Of a stretch of 64,000 bases of DNA, positions 9,281 through 58,267 are shown one piece after another. The stretch covers positions 16,967-80,966 of the IMG/VR virus record IMGVR_UViG_3300042350_003822; one strand, given 5' to 3'. The first letter of the stretch is position 1, and every line of letters starts with the position of its first letter. Made by a program: the position numbers and the translations under genes. The notes beneath the pieces are model-generated. The model was not told the origin of the DNA. It was given only the letters and a program-made list of their open reading frames with translations, and ran no database searches. This DNA is from a virus.

Positions 9281-11965
9281 TTAAAGTCTGCTAGTCGAAT
9301 AGCAATATTGACGCCAAAACCCACCACCGTCGCAGAACGCAAAAAACGATCCGTGGTGAGGAAGCGTGGTGCCTATATCACTGCCACCGGGGAATGCAAG
9401 TGTAACGTTGTTGCCGCTGACATTTGAGATAGCAAAACCTTCCCCAGAGGCAAATCCCGTCGATGGAAACGTGATCGTAATGCCTGATGTGGTAATAAGA
9501 ATGTTTGTACCGCTGTCAGCAGCTCCAAGAGTTTTTGTCGCGTCAATAACATTCTGACCACTTGAGCGAATACCGTGAGTTGCCCACGTTGGCGCGGCGC
9601 CCGAGCCGCCAGACCGTAACACTTGACCTGCAGTGCCGTAGTTAGCGCCACCAATTCCCAACTGCCCAACAGAACCAATTCTGAAACGCTCGGCAGTTGT
9701 TGTGCCGGTCGTAAAAATCATATTGTTGTCGTCGTTGTAAATTTGACTGTCGCCACCGGAAGTCGTTGTACCAGTCGCGGAGCCGATACGAACATCGCCG
9801 CCGCCAGTAAGTCGCATATCTCCCGCAAGAGTTAATTTGTACGCTGGAGAAGTGTCCCCAATCCCGACGTTGCCCGAGCTGGTGATGCGCATTACCTCCG
9901 TACCACCTTCACTGAAAGCAATAGTGTCCGCAGCAGGGGACCACATCCCTGTGTCCGTATCGCCAGTAAACGTATGAGACGGCGTTCCGGTGGCCCCTAA
10001 GCCAGCGCTAAGGCGTGTAGTGTGGAATGCTCCCGTAGTGTTGGCAATGAATGAAGTGCCGACTGTTATAAGGGCAGAGTTGACGCTGGTACTTACATTA
10101 GCTGTACCTAAAACTGTGAGTTTAGCATTTAAGTCGGTTGTACCGATACCCAAACTACCATTCATGTAGTTGTTTGCTGTACCCGAACCATAAAACCCCC
10201 ATTTGTTTGCACCAGCAGTAATTTGACTCCAAAATCCATACACATTTGAAATAGCAGTAGCGTTAAAGGCAGTATACTGGAAAACATTACTTGGTGCGGT
10301 CGCACTAGCCCATGACGGTGTACCAGCACTAAATGTATAAATTGCATTAACAGTTCCAGTATAACTTACTAAAGAGTCTGCTCTTGCAAAAACACCGTTA
10401 AGGTTTGTTATATTGTTTGCCGATGATACAATAGTTGGTAGGAATAACAGACCATATAATGCAGTAAGTGTTCCTGCCCCTTGCGGAGAAACTTGAGATT
10501 GCATCGTGAACATATTCTGCTGGCCAGTTTGGGTAGAATTTATCTGACCACTTAAACTTATATAACCACCAGCATCCGTAACAGTACCAGTTTGGTTGAT
10601 ACGGTTAGATAGGGATAGAGATCCAGTAATCGTTGTATTACCCACTGCTGCAGTAGTTACGCCAGATAGAGCCCCTGCAAACGAGCCGGTTGTTGCATTC
10701 AAAGCCCAGCGGGCCGTTGTATTACCTAAAGCATTGCCAACAGTATTTGATGTGGGAAAAACACCTGTGGTATTTGCTCTAAAGTTTGTTGTAGTAAATG
10801 ATGCAGCGTTTACAGTACCTGTATGATATGCACCTGTAGTGTTGGCAATGAATGAAGTGCCGACAGTTAACAAAGCAGAGTTTACAGATACAGAAGCATT
10901 AGCAAAACCAGTAATCGTGGTATTGCCGGCGGAGACTGCGTTTGAAAATGTTGCTGCCCCACCACTATTTAACGTCAAGTGTGTTGTCATGACACTATTG
11001 TTGCCACCCTGAAATAATAAATCTCCGGTTGAGCGATTGTAGTTAATTCGTTTTATTCCACCAGTCTGGTCAAACGGCTGGCCAAAGCTAACAATAGAAT
11101 TTGCGCCGATGTTGCCAAGGCCAATTTGGTCAGTCCCGTTGCCAGCCGCCAGTGCCTGTTGTGGAGTAGATGTTCCGATACCAACATTACCATTTGCTAC
11201 GATAAAAGCAGCAGTACCAAACGTTGCGGTATTGGTCCCTACTTGTAGGGTGGTTGATACGTTAGCAAAACCAGTAATCGTGGTATTGCCGGCAGCAAGA
11301 GTGGTGATGCCGGAGACTGCGCCAGCAAAGCCTACTGCACTTGTTGTCTTATTAAATGTGAAGCTTGAAGATCCGTTTGCCCCACCAGAGTCATTAAATA
11401 AAACTTGTGTGTTGGATCCACCTATAACCGCAGCTGCACCTACCGAACCAGTGAATCCTACTGAACCAGTGAAGCCAGTAGTTCCTTGAGGGCCCTGGGC
11501 CCCTACTGACCCCGTGAATCCAATTGGTCCCTGTGCACCTTGAGGACCGGTCGAACCAGTGAAACCAATTGGTCCTTGTGCACCCTGAGGCCCGGTTGAA
11601 CCAGTAAAACCAATCGGGCCTTGTGGTCCTGTTGCACCAGTAGAACCAGTAAAGCCTGTTGTTCCTTGAGGGCCCTGGGCACCAATAGAACCTGTAAAGC
11701 CAGTAGTTCCTTGGGCACCAATAGAACCTGTAAAGCCAGTAGTTCCTTGGGCACCAATAGAACCTGTAAAGCCGGTAGTTCCTTGGGCACCGGTAGATCC
11801 AGTGAATCCCACCGAACCAGTGAAGCCAGTAGTTCCCTGAGCACCAGTAGATCCGGTGAAGCCAGTTGCACCTACTGAACCTGTGAAGCCTGTGTTTCCT
11901 TGCTCACCAACAATTATAGCTTCCCACTGAGCAGTGTTAGCGTTATATACTTTTGCTACGCCCAT
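9281..11965 (-). CDS. Collagen-like tail fiber
   Basis: An 894-residue fiber. After a short head ([16 protein letters not shown]), residues 20-177 are Gly-X-Y collagen-like triplets dominated by [12 protein letters not shown] and GPI. The rest is the same beta-modular shaft as in the 1776-residue fiber ([39 protein letters not shown]). The C-terminal ~90 residues (from about [18 protein letters not shown] to [18 protein letters not shown]) look like a small beta tip domain; there is no S74 chaperone. The collagen part probably folds as a triple helix in the trimeric fiber. Start at 11965 with AAGG upstream. Confidence 0.8.
11435..11908 (-). repeat. Collagen-like Gly-X-Y coding repeat
   Basis: Codes residues 20-177 of the 894-residue fiber. 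The 15- to 27-base units encode GFTGS(V/I/T)GAQGTT or GPQGAQGPI variants. The Y position is mostly Thr, Ser, Gln or Ile; Pro is mostly in X. Repeats at the DNA level make length changes by recombination likely. Confidence 0.8.
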
Positions 11966-48333: not shown

Positions 48334-49035
48334 ATGTTTCAAATTTCAAACTTCCAGGCAAGTCTAGATAAGAGTGGGGTAATGAGAACCAATAGGTTCT
48401 TAGTGAACTTCAACCTACCTAGCTACCTCAGAGACAACAGAGAGCTCTATGGCTTTGGAGATGCTCTCATATCTCTTAGATGTCACTCTGCTCAGATTCC
48501 CGGCATCACTCTTAGCACCCTTGATCAACCAAGAATTGGTATCGGTCCTAACGAAAACGTTGCTAGCAACCTCACGTTTGATGACATCACGCTGACGTTT
48601 CTTGTCGACGCTCAATCGAAGCTACATAACCTGTTCTATGATTGGTTCAATACAATTGTGAACTTCCAGGGCTCAAAGGGTCAGTCTACACTTGACAGGT
48701 CCTATACCATTGGTAGGCAAAGGTCTGCGGCGTATGAAGTGGGCTACAAGGATTCGTATACAACCGATCTCTCGATCTCTATTTACGATGGATACACACC
48801 ATCGGGCACTTCTGTAGGTGGGCAGGCTGTCCCCACAATTGCACAAGGTAATGTTCCTATCCTAAACGTAAGAGCATTCAAGGCTTTCCCAAAGACATTG
48901 CCTTCTATCGATTTGGATTGGAACTCAAACGACGAACTCGTCAAAATGTCTGTTCCCTTTTCTATTACCGACTTTGAGGTATCATATCCCGCTAATAAAA
49001 CACAACCAGTTTTACAATCCCCAGACTTTTTATAA
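48334..49035 (+). CDS. 54: Tail-tube-fold protein, probable gp54 tube initiator
   Basis: A 233-residue protein of the gp19/gp54 tail-tube fold: RTNRFLVNFNLPSYL, CHSAQIPGITLSTLDQ, ASNLTFDDITLTFLVDAQSKLHNLFYDWFNTIVN, and a closing VPFSITDFEVSY. The tube protein proper (gp19) should lie next to gp18 outside this window, so by position next to gp26 this is most likely the tube initiator gp54, which binds gp48. T4 gp54 is longer (320). The alternative is a second tube-like protein. Confidence 0.62.
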   Translation: MFQISNFQASLDKSGVMRTNRFLVNFNLPSYLRDNRELYGFGDALISLRCHSAQIPGITLSTLDQPRIGIGPNENVASNLTFDDITLTFLVDAQSKLHNLFYDWFNTIVNFQGSKGQSTLDRSYTIGRQRSAAYEVGYKDSYTTDLSISIYDGYTPSGTSVGGQAVPTIAQGNVPILNVRAFKAFPKTLPSIDLDWNSNDELVKMSVPFSITDFEVSYPANKTQPVLQSPDFL

Positions 49036-55002: not shown

Positions 55003-55082
55003 GTATTTTCTCCATATGATTTACGTATTGTTGTGTGTTTTTTCATGTCCACATTATTCATAATATACAACTACTTATATAA

Positions 55083-55313
55083 TTACAACGGTAGTTTCGC
55101 TGTCTTAGGAAGAAGATTGAGTTCTTCTCCCTCGTTTTGAATAATGGCTTTGAACTTACCATTACTCTTAATAATGGCTGCGGCAGTCTCTATCTCGAGA
55201 TTGTTCTTCTCGCAATAGTGGACCACCGCATCCATATAGTCAGTCCTGAGCTCACACACGAGTGCTTCAATGTCTGCATAAAAATTAAGTGGTGTTAGCT
55301 TTTGGATCATCAT
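55083..55313 (-). CDS. 33: Late transcription co-activator, gp33-like (probable)
   Basis: A 76-residue protein: LTPLNFYADIEALVCELRTDYMDAVVHYCEKNNLEIETAAAIIKSNGKFKAIIQNEGEELNLLPKTAKLPL. The helical core and hydrophobic C-terminal end are what I recognise as gp33 of T4-like cyanophages, which bridges the sliding clamp and the RNA polymerase beta flap. Its position next to gp32 is as in T4 (33, 59, 32). No gp59 is seen. It begins 5 bases after the cell-wall hydrolase stop with AGGA in that gene. The late promoters in this window need such a factor. Confidence 0.62.
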   Translation of the reverse strand: MMIQKLTPLNFYADIEALVCELRTDYMDAVVHYCEKNNLEIETAAAIIKSNGKFKAIIQNEGEELNLLPKTAKLPL

Positions 55314-55318
55314 TAAGT

Positions 55319-56890: not shown

Positions 56891-56898
56891 TATAAATA
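56891..56898 (+). promoter_or_regulatory. Late promoter (TATAAATA), plus strand, for HNH gene
   Basis: Perfect TATAAATA on the plus strand, 57 bases ahead of the HNH ATG. It is the only plus-strand late promoter in the right arm. Confidence 0.6.
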
Positions 56899-56954: not shown

Positions 56955-57446
56955 ATGACTATTTATTATCACGTACATCACATTATCCCAAGGCATATGG
57001 GTGGTACTGACGACCCTGATAACCTAATAAAACTCACAGTAGAAGAGCATGCCGAAGCCCATAGACTTCTATATGAGAAATACGGCAATGAATTCGACAA
57101 AATTGCGTGGCTTGGTCTTACTAAAAGTATAACGAAGCAAGAAGCGATGAGACTTGCTCAGAGCGAGGGTGGTAAAAAGAAAAAACCACCTAGGTCAAAA
57201 GAGCATAAAGAAAAATTGTCAAAAGCTGGTATGGGGCGTATTGTCTCCAACGAAACCCGAAAGAAGTTGGTAAAAGCATCTACTGGGGTAAAGCGTTCAG
57301 AAGAAACCCGTAAGAAAATGTCTGACTCCCATAAAGGACAGCGAAGACCCCACACAGAAGATGCTAAAAGAAAAATTTCAGAAGCACGTCGTAGAAGAGT
57401 ACTGGTTGATTCTGTTTCAAAGCTCAACCAGCAAAGCTCATGTTAG
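56955..57446 (+). CDS. HNH homing endonuclease with NUMOD3 motifs
   Basis: A 163-residue protein. Residues 7-45 form an HNH core (HHIIPRHMGGTDDPDNLIKLTVEEHAEAH). From about 75 onward come three NUMOD3-type DNA-binding repeats (RSKEHKEKLSKAGMG, SNETRKKLVKASTG, RSEETRKKMSDSHKG) and a basic tail. This is the usual architecture of free-standing phage homing endonucleases. Good GGAG start. The gene runs against the surrounding minus-strand genes and ends two bases from the tmRNA tag stop. Its 3' end lies antisense to the predicted 3' end of the tmRNA coding piece. Confidence 0.88.
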   Translation: MTIYYHVHHIIPRHMGGTDDPDNLIKLTVEEHAEAHRLLYEKYGNEFDKIAWLGLTKSITKQEAMRLAQSEGGKKKKPPRSKEHKEKLSKAGMGRIVSNETRKKLVKASTGVKRSEETRKKMSDSHKGQRRPHTEDAKRKISEARRRRVLVDSVSKLNQQSSC

Positions 57447-57729
57447 ATTAGGCAGCTAGTGCGTAATTAACAATATCGTTATCATTAGATGCGACATTTA
57501 GTTTTTATGATCGTACTCGATCAACGAATCAGTCTCGAACCGCCCTATTCAACGAAAATCGATATCCTGGTCACCCCCATCATAGATACACCATTTAGTC
57601 TTACTGCGTAGTATGCCGAAGCGCCCATAAGACCAGTCTTTCGGTCCACACTGTGGTGTATCTATGGTGGAGGTGGAGGGAGTCGAACCCTCGTCTTTCC
57701 GCCTTTATTGTTGATTGTCAACAACTGAT
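57402..57729 (-). ncRNA. ssrA: Circularly permuted (two-piece) tmRNA
   Basis: Read on the minus strand the order is: T-arm GAGGG-TTCGACT-CCCTC (57692-57676), acceptor 3' strand CACCTCC (57675-57669), A, encoded CCA (57667-57665), an 86-base spacer, acceptor 5' strand GGGGGTG (57578-57572) pairing with CACCTCC, then AGGATATCGA (D-arm-like), a 6-bp hairpin TGATCG/CGATCA (57523-57508) in the place of pseudoknot 1, and the tag frame starting at GCA (57492). TTTTCG in the coding piece pairs with CGGAAA just before the T-arm (helix 2). A 12-bp inverted repeat (57582-57593, 57654-57665) extends the acceptor stem and should guide processing. The ends of the mature pieces are estimates. tmRNA rescues stalled ribosomes and tags their peptides. 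Confidence 0.9.
57448..57492 (-). other. tmRNA tag reading frame (ASNDNDIVNYALAA)
   Basis: Fourteen codons from the resume codon GCA, preceded by AAATGTC as in other tmRNAs (-TC-GCA), to TAA at 57450-57448. The ending YALAA is that of protease-directed tags (ClpXP and others recognise the final LAA). The AND/SNDN start is similar to other bacterial tags. Confidence 0.9.
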
Positions 57730-57735
57730 ATACTA

Positions 57736-57764
57736 TTTATAGTCTACTTTACTTTTGAAGTCAA
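57736..57764 (-). promoter_or_regulatory. tmRNA promoter (early-type)
   Basis: CTGTTGACT box (-35 TTGACT at 57764-57759), 17-base spacer, TATAAA (57741-57736). Same design as the five other early promoters in this arm. The -10 also reads TATAAATA, a perfect late box. The -35 lies inside the last codons of the preceding gene. Start of transcription would be near 57728. Confidence 0.75.
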
Positions 57765-58067
57765 CAGGCTTTTTGCTCTTTTTACAACCCATGCAGGCGA
57801 AGGAAGATGCATCCCAGTAGACCCGTTCCAGTCGCTAAACTCTTTGTCGTAGAAGTCGATCTCATTCTTCTGCTTCTGTAGCTCTGTCAGCTCTTCAGCC
57901 CACTGCTGCCACTTCTCGTCTGTGATGATGCTATCGTCTAGCACATAGTAGAGATAGGAGTGAACAAGCATCTGAGTGCGGCGCTGCTTGATCTTCTCTG
58001 ACAGCGTCTGCACTGCATTGACCATAGGATCGCTGGGATTCTCGTTAAGAAGATCTTCGAGATTCAT
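57744..58067 (-). CDS. Small protein resembling the N-terminal Ia domain of NAD-dependent DNA ligases
   Basis: A 107-residue protein starting at the ATG at 58067, overlapping the previous stop by 4 bases (a start at 58088 would be inside that gene). The middle (HSYLYYVLDDSIITDEKWQQWAEELTEL) is similar to the NAD-binding Ia segment of bacterial ligases (YYxxDxPxxxDxxYDxL), and the ending FSDWNGSTGMHLPSPAWVVKRA is common in similar phage proteins. There is no adenylation domain, so ligase activity is excluded. Function unknown; early operon, just ahead of the tmRNA. Confidence 0.55.
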   Translation of the reverse strand: MNLEDLLNENPSDPMVNAVQTLSEKIKQRRTQMLVHSYLYYVLDDSIITDEKWQQWAEELTELQKQKNEIDFYDKEFSDWNGSTGMHLPSPAWVVKRAKSLLTSKVK

Positions 58068-58267
58068 AGGTACTCGCCGAATCCCCAATAATCTTTACCA
58101 TTCTTGGTAACAAAGAAGATCTTGGTTGGCTTCTCCTGTAGTGTACCAGGATCGTCGAGAAGAGAATGATTAGCAAGCATCTCATCGATGGTAAATGGCA
58201 TCTGAGCCATCTTCTCATCGTTTGTCTTGATCCAACCATTGTTGGTAGAGATAATATAAGTGTCCAT
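58064..58267 (-). CDS. Small early hypothetical protein
   Basis: A 67-residue protein, started at the ATG at 58267 that overlaps the previous stop (TAATG). MDTYIISTNNGWIKTNDEKMAQMPFTIDEML and the end TKIFFVTKNGKDYWGFGEYL. No motif known to me. Middle gene of a three-gene early operon. Confidence 0.55.
   Translation of the reverse strand: MDTYIISTNNGWIKTNDEKMAQMPFTIDEMLANHSLLDDPGTLQEKPTKIFFVTKNGKDYWGFGEYL

Follow-up and report, generated by a model that had tools for sequence, protein, structure and literature searches.

A predicted two-piece tmRNA of an uncultured T4-like phage and its viral relatives, some of which hold HNH genes in the intervening segment

RESULTS AND DISCUSSION

A permuted tmRNA gene in a T4-like phage

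The stretch of DNA analyzed here (the window; 64,000 nucleotides) is part of an 80,966-base IMG/VR virus record and carries a complete circularly permuted (two-piece) tmRNA gene on its minus strand (57729 to 57402). A tmRNA releases stalled ribosomes and adds a tag to incomplete proteins. As judged by its sequence, the gene belongs to a lineage found so far only in viruses. We consider it highly probable that this gene of a T4-like phage is transcribed from its own promoter, processed by the host, served by the host alanyl-tRNA synthetase (AlaRS) and SmpB, and used for ClpXP-type tagging that would provide extra ribosome rescue. The most novel part of this study concerns relatives of the gene, in which homing endonuclease genes are nested in the intervening segment (IVS).

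On the basis of its genes for portal, major head, tail sheath, large terminase, and baseplate wedge proteins and for gp32, the phage is an uncultured T4-like myophage. The tail-tube family phrog_45 was matched by two different genes of one phage record (window positions 48334 to 49035, plus strand; L342 positions 9525 to 10070, minus strand).

The merged model of permuted tmRNAs (RF04321) matched positions 57726 to 57448 of the minus strand over its full length (model positions 1 to 213 of 213) with 82.0 bits (cut-off, 47; E = 3.8e-14), and ARAGORN called a single gene, i.e., a permuted tmRNA on the minus strand with the tag VASNDNDIVNYALAA. Together with the comparative evidence described below, these results support the prediction that the phage encodes a permuted tmRNA that is structurally complete and bears a tag of the degradation type, as the first-pass annotation of this DNA had proposed without naming the strand. 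That annotation had suggested a search with the alphaproteobacterial model. The clade-specific Rfam models scored under their own cut-offs (alpha, 37.5 bits [cut-off, 50]; beta, 43.8 bits [84]; cyano, 16.8 bits [70]), and the merged model is the only permuted tmRNA model whose cut-off is passed. The fold had a z-score of -5.3, with none of 100 shuffled sequences being equally stable. No other RNA family, group I introns included, was detected by Rfam in the window.

The elements of the gene follow one another in the permuted order (T-arm, acceptor 3' strand, IVS, acceptor 5' strand, and tag; Table 1), and all of the parts listed in the first pass are present. The inverted repeat of the 86-base spacer is perfect, comprising 11 bp counted from the base after CCA or, with the A of CCA included, the 12 bp reported previously. 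The acceptor strands pair as had been described, and their single G-U is G3-U70, which we take to be the alanine identity pair for alanyl-tRNA synthetase. The two pieces, whose predicted sizes match the earlier estimates of about 65 and about 175 nt, are joined by P2 (AUCAGUU/GACUGAU). At the site of pseudoknot 1 (PK1), only a covarying hairpin was found, with no second helix seen.

Table 1. Features of the permuted tmRNA gene and its surroundings (positions in the window)
Feature	Position	Strand	Evidence
Acceptor piece, 65 nt (P2 3' half, T-arm, acceptor 3' strand, CCA)	57665-57729	-	RF04321
T-arm	57692-57676	-	
Acceptor 3' strand CACCUCC and encoded CCA	57675-57665	-	
IVS, 86 nt (closing stem of 11 bp, then UGAU before G1)	57579-57664	-	
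Coding piece, 177 nt (acceptor 5' strand, D-loop region, P2 5' half, hairpin in place of PK1, tag, 3' hairpin)	57402-57578	-	RF04321
Acceptor 5' strand GGGGGUG, pairing with CACCUCC (one G-U)	57578-57572	-	
Hairpin in place of PK1	57523-57508	-	
UAAAU upstream of the tag frame	57500-57496	-	
Tag frame GUC...UAA (predicted; 15 residues)	57448-57495	-	ARAGORN
3' hairpin	57431-57402	-	
Predicted sigma-70-type promoter, TTGACT-17-TATAAA (predicted start near 57729)	57734-57764	-	
ORF matching only the N-terminal Ia domain of NAD-dependent DNA ligase	57744-58088	-	Pfam Nlig-Ia, 1.9e-28; PHROG DNA ligase
HNH + NUMOD3 homing endonuclease ORF, convergent	56955-57446	+	Pfam NUMOD3, 1.2e-11; Pfam HNH, 1.5e-5; PHROG homing endonuclease, 2.1e-21

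Tag and resume codon

The sequence after UAAAU reads GUC GCA UCU AAU, in which GUC occupies positions 57495 to 57493 and GCA occupies positions 57492 to 57490. The resume codon is probably GUC, giving the predicted tag VASNDNDIVNYALAA. The first-pass annotation had placed it at GCA of the same gene, with the tag ASNDNDIVNYALAA. This placement, which we now regard as unlikely, has in its favor that the first residue of a tag is usually alanine and that GUC-GCA resembles the UAGUC-GCA of E. coli. GUC, for its part, is an uncommon resume codon. However, a start at GCA would have U at position -4, and in the E. coli tmRNA the A at -4 (A86) sets the frame, while C or U at this position results in no measurable activity (PMC2481249). 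Moreover, UAAAU lies directly 5' of the called resume codon in 42 of the 47 family sequences counted, and in the window it precedes GUC, in agreement with ARAGORN. The family tags vary yet end in LAA, which is encoded by different codons.

Conservation across relatives

A set of relatives was compiled that comprised 74 distinct sequences sharing a shorter core, GAGACTGATT. The acceptor with G3-U70 was present in 73 of them, and the P2 pairing AUCAGUU/GACUGAU was present in 69. Covariation was seen in the T-arm, the acceptor, and the base of P2; the stems of the hairpin in the place of PK1 vary yet stay complementary, and the 3' hairpin varies likewise. The IVS closing stem had a mean length of 10.8 bp, compared with 3.1 bp for shuffled sequences (56 distinct IVSs), and is usually separated from G1 by 4 or 5 nt, which mostly end in UGAU. 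We rejected the closing stem as a phage novelty, as bacterial segments were also hairpin forming by inspection (a qualitative comparison).

IVS lengths ranged from 3 to 525 nt across the sequences examined. The shortest (3 nt in L135, L137, and L167; 5 nt in L164, L170, L180, and L224) leave the acceptor stem capped by a short loop. In three loci (L202, L213, and L276), a 155-nt IVS holds a 57-aa ORF matching Pfam DUF6356 (PF19883; E = 4.8e-7). An IVS of 133 to 134 nt in L138, L160, L189, and similar loci carries an ORF of 57 to 58 aa with CxC and CCxxC motifs, which extends from the IVS into the coding piece, is alike between tmRNAs of different tag types, and had no family match. At a further locus (L009), two AACAGAA-type 3' hairpins that differ from each other stand one after the other, which looks like the addition of a second 3' module to an existing one.

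A clade of viral sequences

The 23-mer at the core of the coding piece, AATARGGCGGTTYGAGACTGATT, was present in at least 119 viral contigs, whereas a scan of species genomes of bacteria and archaea (84,980 in total) gave no exact match. ARAGORN tmRNA calls cover 110 of its 129 occurrences in the collected loci; the other places include contig ends, genes missed by ARAGORN, and long-IVS cases. The core string of the window was absent from the cultured phages of the collection by blastn, and no permuted tmRNA was found in Caulobacter phage Cr30 or Sinorhizobium phage phiM12.

In a tree built from the tRNA-like and pre-tag regions, from which three loci with odd ARAGORN tags (L044, L095, and L103) were excluded, the family fell into a clade of viral sequences only (support, 97/99). 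This clade grouped with alpha-type bacterial tmRNAs, apart from the beta type, although its neighbor is less certain than the clade itself because the tree was rooted at the midpoint and the viral branch is long. The AACAGAA 3' hairpin was rejected as proof of an alphaproteobacterial origin because betaproteobacterial genes have such a hairpin too. Phage two-piece tmRNAs as such have already been published (PMC9004378); what is new here is the membership of this tmRNA in a virus-only clade.

The first-pass annotation had held that the gene points to the host clade. This is true only loosely. The grouping with alphaproteobacterial-type tmRNAs is in line with it, as is the baseplate wedge protein, whose nearest matches are from Caulobacter, Sinorhizobium, and Pelagibacter phages and one Stenotrophomonas phage; in contrast, gp32 is nearest to those of Synechococcus phages (cyanophages). 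Neither the tag nor gene similarity gave a firm host assignment, and an alphaproteobacterial host is our guess.

Promoter and gene neighborhood

The predicted transcription start lies near 57729, the first base of P2. The -35 and -10 boxes of the predicted promoter were conserved when 46 distinct upstream regions from the family were compared, with the pattern TTGAC(T/A), TGTACA or a similar box, 17 nt, and then TATAWA. The best two-box score was 9.35 of 12, compared with 7.83 for shuffles (maximum, 8.11). A stock promoter scan missed this promoter because the scan demands T at the last -10 position. The -10 region, TATAAATA (57741 to 57734), also fits the T4 late-promoter octamer. We dropped a T4 late promoter as the sole promoter because the conserved -35 box at a spacing of 17 nt points to the sigma-70 type; the most that we claim is that the promoter is possibly of dual use (sigma-70 type and T4 late).

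The upstream neighbor of the gene is the ligase-Ia ORF, the 3' end of which overlaps the tmRNA promoter. The place of the tmRNA gene is conserved in the family: downstream of it lie a cell-wall hydrolase gene (in 68 family loci) and gp32 (in 48 loci).

On the other side, the HNH ORF is, over its last 45 nt, antisense to the region of the tmRNA 3' hairpin, and TATAAATA is found at 56891 to 56898, about 57 bases upstream of this ORF. In a locus with the same tag as the window (L090), only the C-terminal end of the edge HNH ORF remains; two other loci (L217 and L268) have a related HNH ORF near the same tmRNA 3' edge on the opposite strand.

Homing endonuclease genes inside the IVS of relatives

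The IVS of the window tmRNA lacks an HNH gene. At least six distinct phage tmRNA genes contain an HNH ORF of 141 to 158 aa, located past the encoded CCA and ahead of the acceptor 5' strand. These are L349 (the same contig as L019 and L210), L351 (the same as L270), L215, L350, L352 to L354 (one sequence in three samples), and L355. A further locus, L356, looks like such a case cut at the contig end and was judged by its downstream side only.

These IVSs are 471 to 525 nt long and keep a closing stem of 9 to 16 bp. Their acceptors form five different pairs (GGGCCTG/CAGGTCC, GGGCCCG/CGGGTCC, GGGCCGG/CCGGTCC, GGGGCAG/CTGCTCC, and GGGGGTG/CACCTCC), all fully paired with G3-U70 in each, although partly by construction, because the script that located the acceptor 5' strand demanded GGG and full pairing. 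Independent support comes from the location of the 5' strand, which immediately follows the closing stem and precedes the D-loop sequence, and from the 3-70 G-U, which the search did not demand. At the level of predicted pairing, the acceptor changes are compensatory.

Five of the six nested genes have an HNH frame that extends across the 5' acceptor strand. In all nested cases, a hairpin with TATAAATA in its loop pairs with the ribosome-binding region; a late promoter in a hairpin hiding the ribosome-binding site (RBS) is the design of I-TevI, SegB, and Aeh1 MobE (PMC2988022). Codon differences among three of the nested HNH genes were mostly synonymous (44:20, 47:26, and 47:30). A scan for HNH relatives yielded 70 loci, of which 8 were nearly full-length matches, all of them tmRNA-IVS cases (L356 included), while most of the others had the nuclease domain alone in common. 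The HNH protein of the window shares its nuclease domain with an IVS HNH protein (61% identity over 70 aa) and differs in its C-terminal part. Calls of a long IVS in L187 and L226 were discarded as chance matches, as were HNH genes close to TCCACCA in L394, L396, and L399.

No intron was found in the nested-HNH tmRNA genes. A survey of 97,179 tmRNA sequences describes, in its main text, homing endonucleases in tmRNA group I introns and a tRNA and a repeat in permuted IVSs, with no endonuclease in a permuted IVS reported there. We found none in other open-access literature either; priority is not certain. We regard it as likely that homing endonucleases with a late-promoter/RBS-hairpin switch find a splicing-free refuge in the IVS of permuted tmRNA genes. 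The tmRNA would stay functional because the IVS is discarded anyway, and the HNH protein of the window would be a free-standing relative as judged by its nuclease domain.

Proposed function and alternative explanations

From these observations, we infer the following course of events. The gene would most likely be transcribed from its own sigma-70-type promoter and possibly also late, because the -10 region matches the T4 late octamer. In the precursor, the IVS would fold as a hairpin stacked on the acceptor stem; its removal by host tRNA-processing enzymes would leave an acceptor piece of about 65 nt and a coding piece of about 177 nt held together by P2. Host AlaRS would charge the tmRNA via G3-U70. 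SmpB was found neither in the phage record of the window (best match, 11.7 bits; cut-off, 27) nor in 12 other phage records, 9 of which have a permuted tmRNA and some of which are fragments. The phage tmRNA presumably uses host SmpB for delivery to stalled ribosomes, and its function would depend on compatibility with the host. With GUC as the resume codon after UAAAU, translation would append VASNDNDIVNYALAA, a degradation tag of the ClpXP type. The phage would probably gain additional ribosome rescue at a time when mRNAs are cut during infection.

It is conceivable, if doubtful, that the main role of the phage tmRNA is not to add rescue capacity but to compete with its host counterpart or to tag host proteins so that they are redirected or recycled. 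A tmRNA-like RNA of phage DS6A that has no tag frame inhibits the endogenous tmRNA in E. coli (cited in PMC11915505), and for phage Melnitz, selective tagging of host proteins has been put forward (PMC9004378). In contrast to the DS6A form, the family described here has kept the tag frame, stop, LAA ending, and G3-U70, as expected for an active tagging RNA, although these kept features are compatible with host-protein tagging too.

An ssrA gene is a common site of integration, and ssrA fragments are found in prophages. Such use of host ssrA genes and such prophage fragments (PMC9004378) could suggest that the gene is a captured or decaying host gene, or the remnant of a prophage attachment site, without function for the phage. 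We consider this highly improbable, as the gene is complete and not a fragment, its clade is viral only, and it occurs on many contigs in one conserved T4-like place with covarying stems and a conserved promoter. Recent capture from a host is also disfavored by the scan of 84,980 genomes, in which the 23-mer had to match exactly.

Comparison with known systems

Methylophilales phage Melnitz and Pelagibacter phage Mosig are T4-like phages with a permuted tmRNA (PMC9004378), as is the phage of the window. Their tmRNAs share the alphaproteobacterial-type affinity, and in Mosig, too, no SmpB was found; however, the Mosig tmRNA belongs to a different clade of the tree, and both phages carry a glutamine riboswitch (PMC9004378), whereas no other Rfam family was detected in the window. 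Alcaligenes phage vB_Af_QDWS595 (L003), of the Schitoviridae, also bears a permuted tmRNA, with a 3' hairpin similar in sequence to that of the window, but its tag is ANDNVYAAAA and it lies outside the viral clade of the window. The gene in this cultured phage is unannotated (positions 55063 to 55316 of the record; 111 bits).

The alphaproteobacterial (RF01849) and merged (RF04321) models have the gene order, acceptor stem, T-arm, P2, tag, and 3' hairpin with an AACAGAA loop in common with the window. The window gene differs in scoring under the alpha and beta cut-offs and in its phage-specific P2/PK1 segment with a plain hairpin. UAAAU precedes the tag in the window family, whereas the sampled alpha-type bacteria mostly have UAGUU.

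Endonuclease genes inside tmRNA genes are known from tmRNA group I introns with LAGLIDADG enzymes (PMC11915505), which in this respect resemble L215 and L349 to L355. In the LAGLIDADG cases, however, the enzyme gene is in a self-splicing intron in the T-loop, whereas in the relatives described here an HNH gene is in the IVS of a permuted gene and no intron was found. I-TevI, SegB, and Aeh1 MobE (PMC2988022) share the RBS-hiding late-promoter hairpin with the nested HNH genes, and like the IVS enzymes they are HNH or GIY-YIG enzymes of T4-like phages; their genes lie within introns or in intergenic positions (for SegB, between tRNA genes), whereas the nested HNH genes lie inside one RNA gene.

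The gene of the window would represent a virus-maintained lineage of a central translation quality-control RNA with its charging signal, degradation tag, and own promoter. Because viruses have kept these three features, ribosome rescue may be studied as a function supplied by phages. As the nested HNH genes suggest, a self-splicing intron may not be needed for a selfish gene to reside in an RNA gene that has a discarded internal segment. These nested genes also bear on the question of why permuted genes tolerate very variable spacers.
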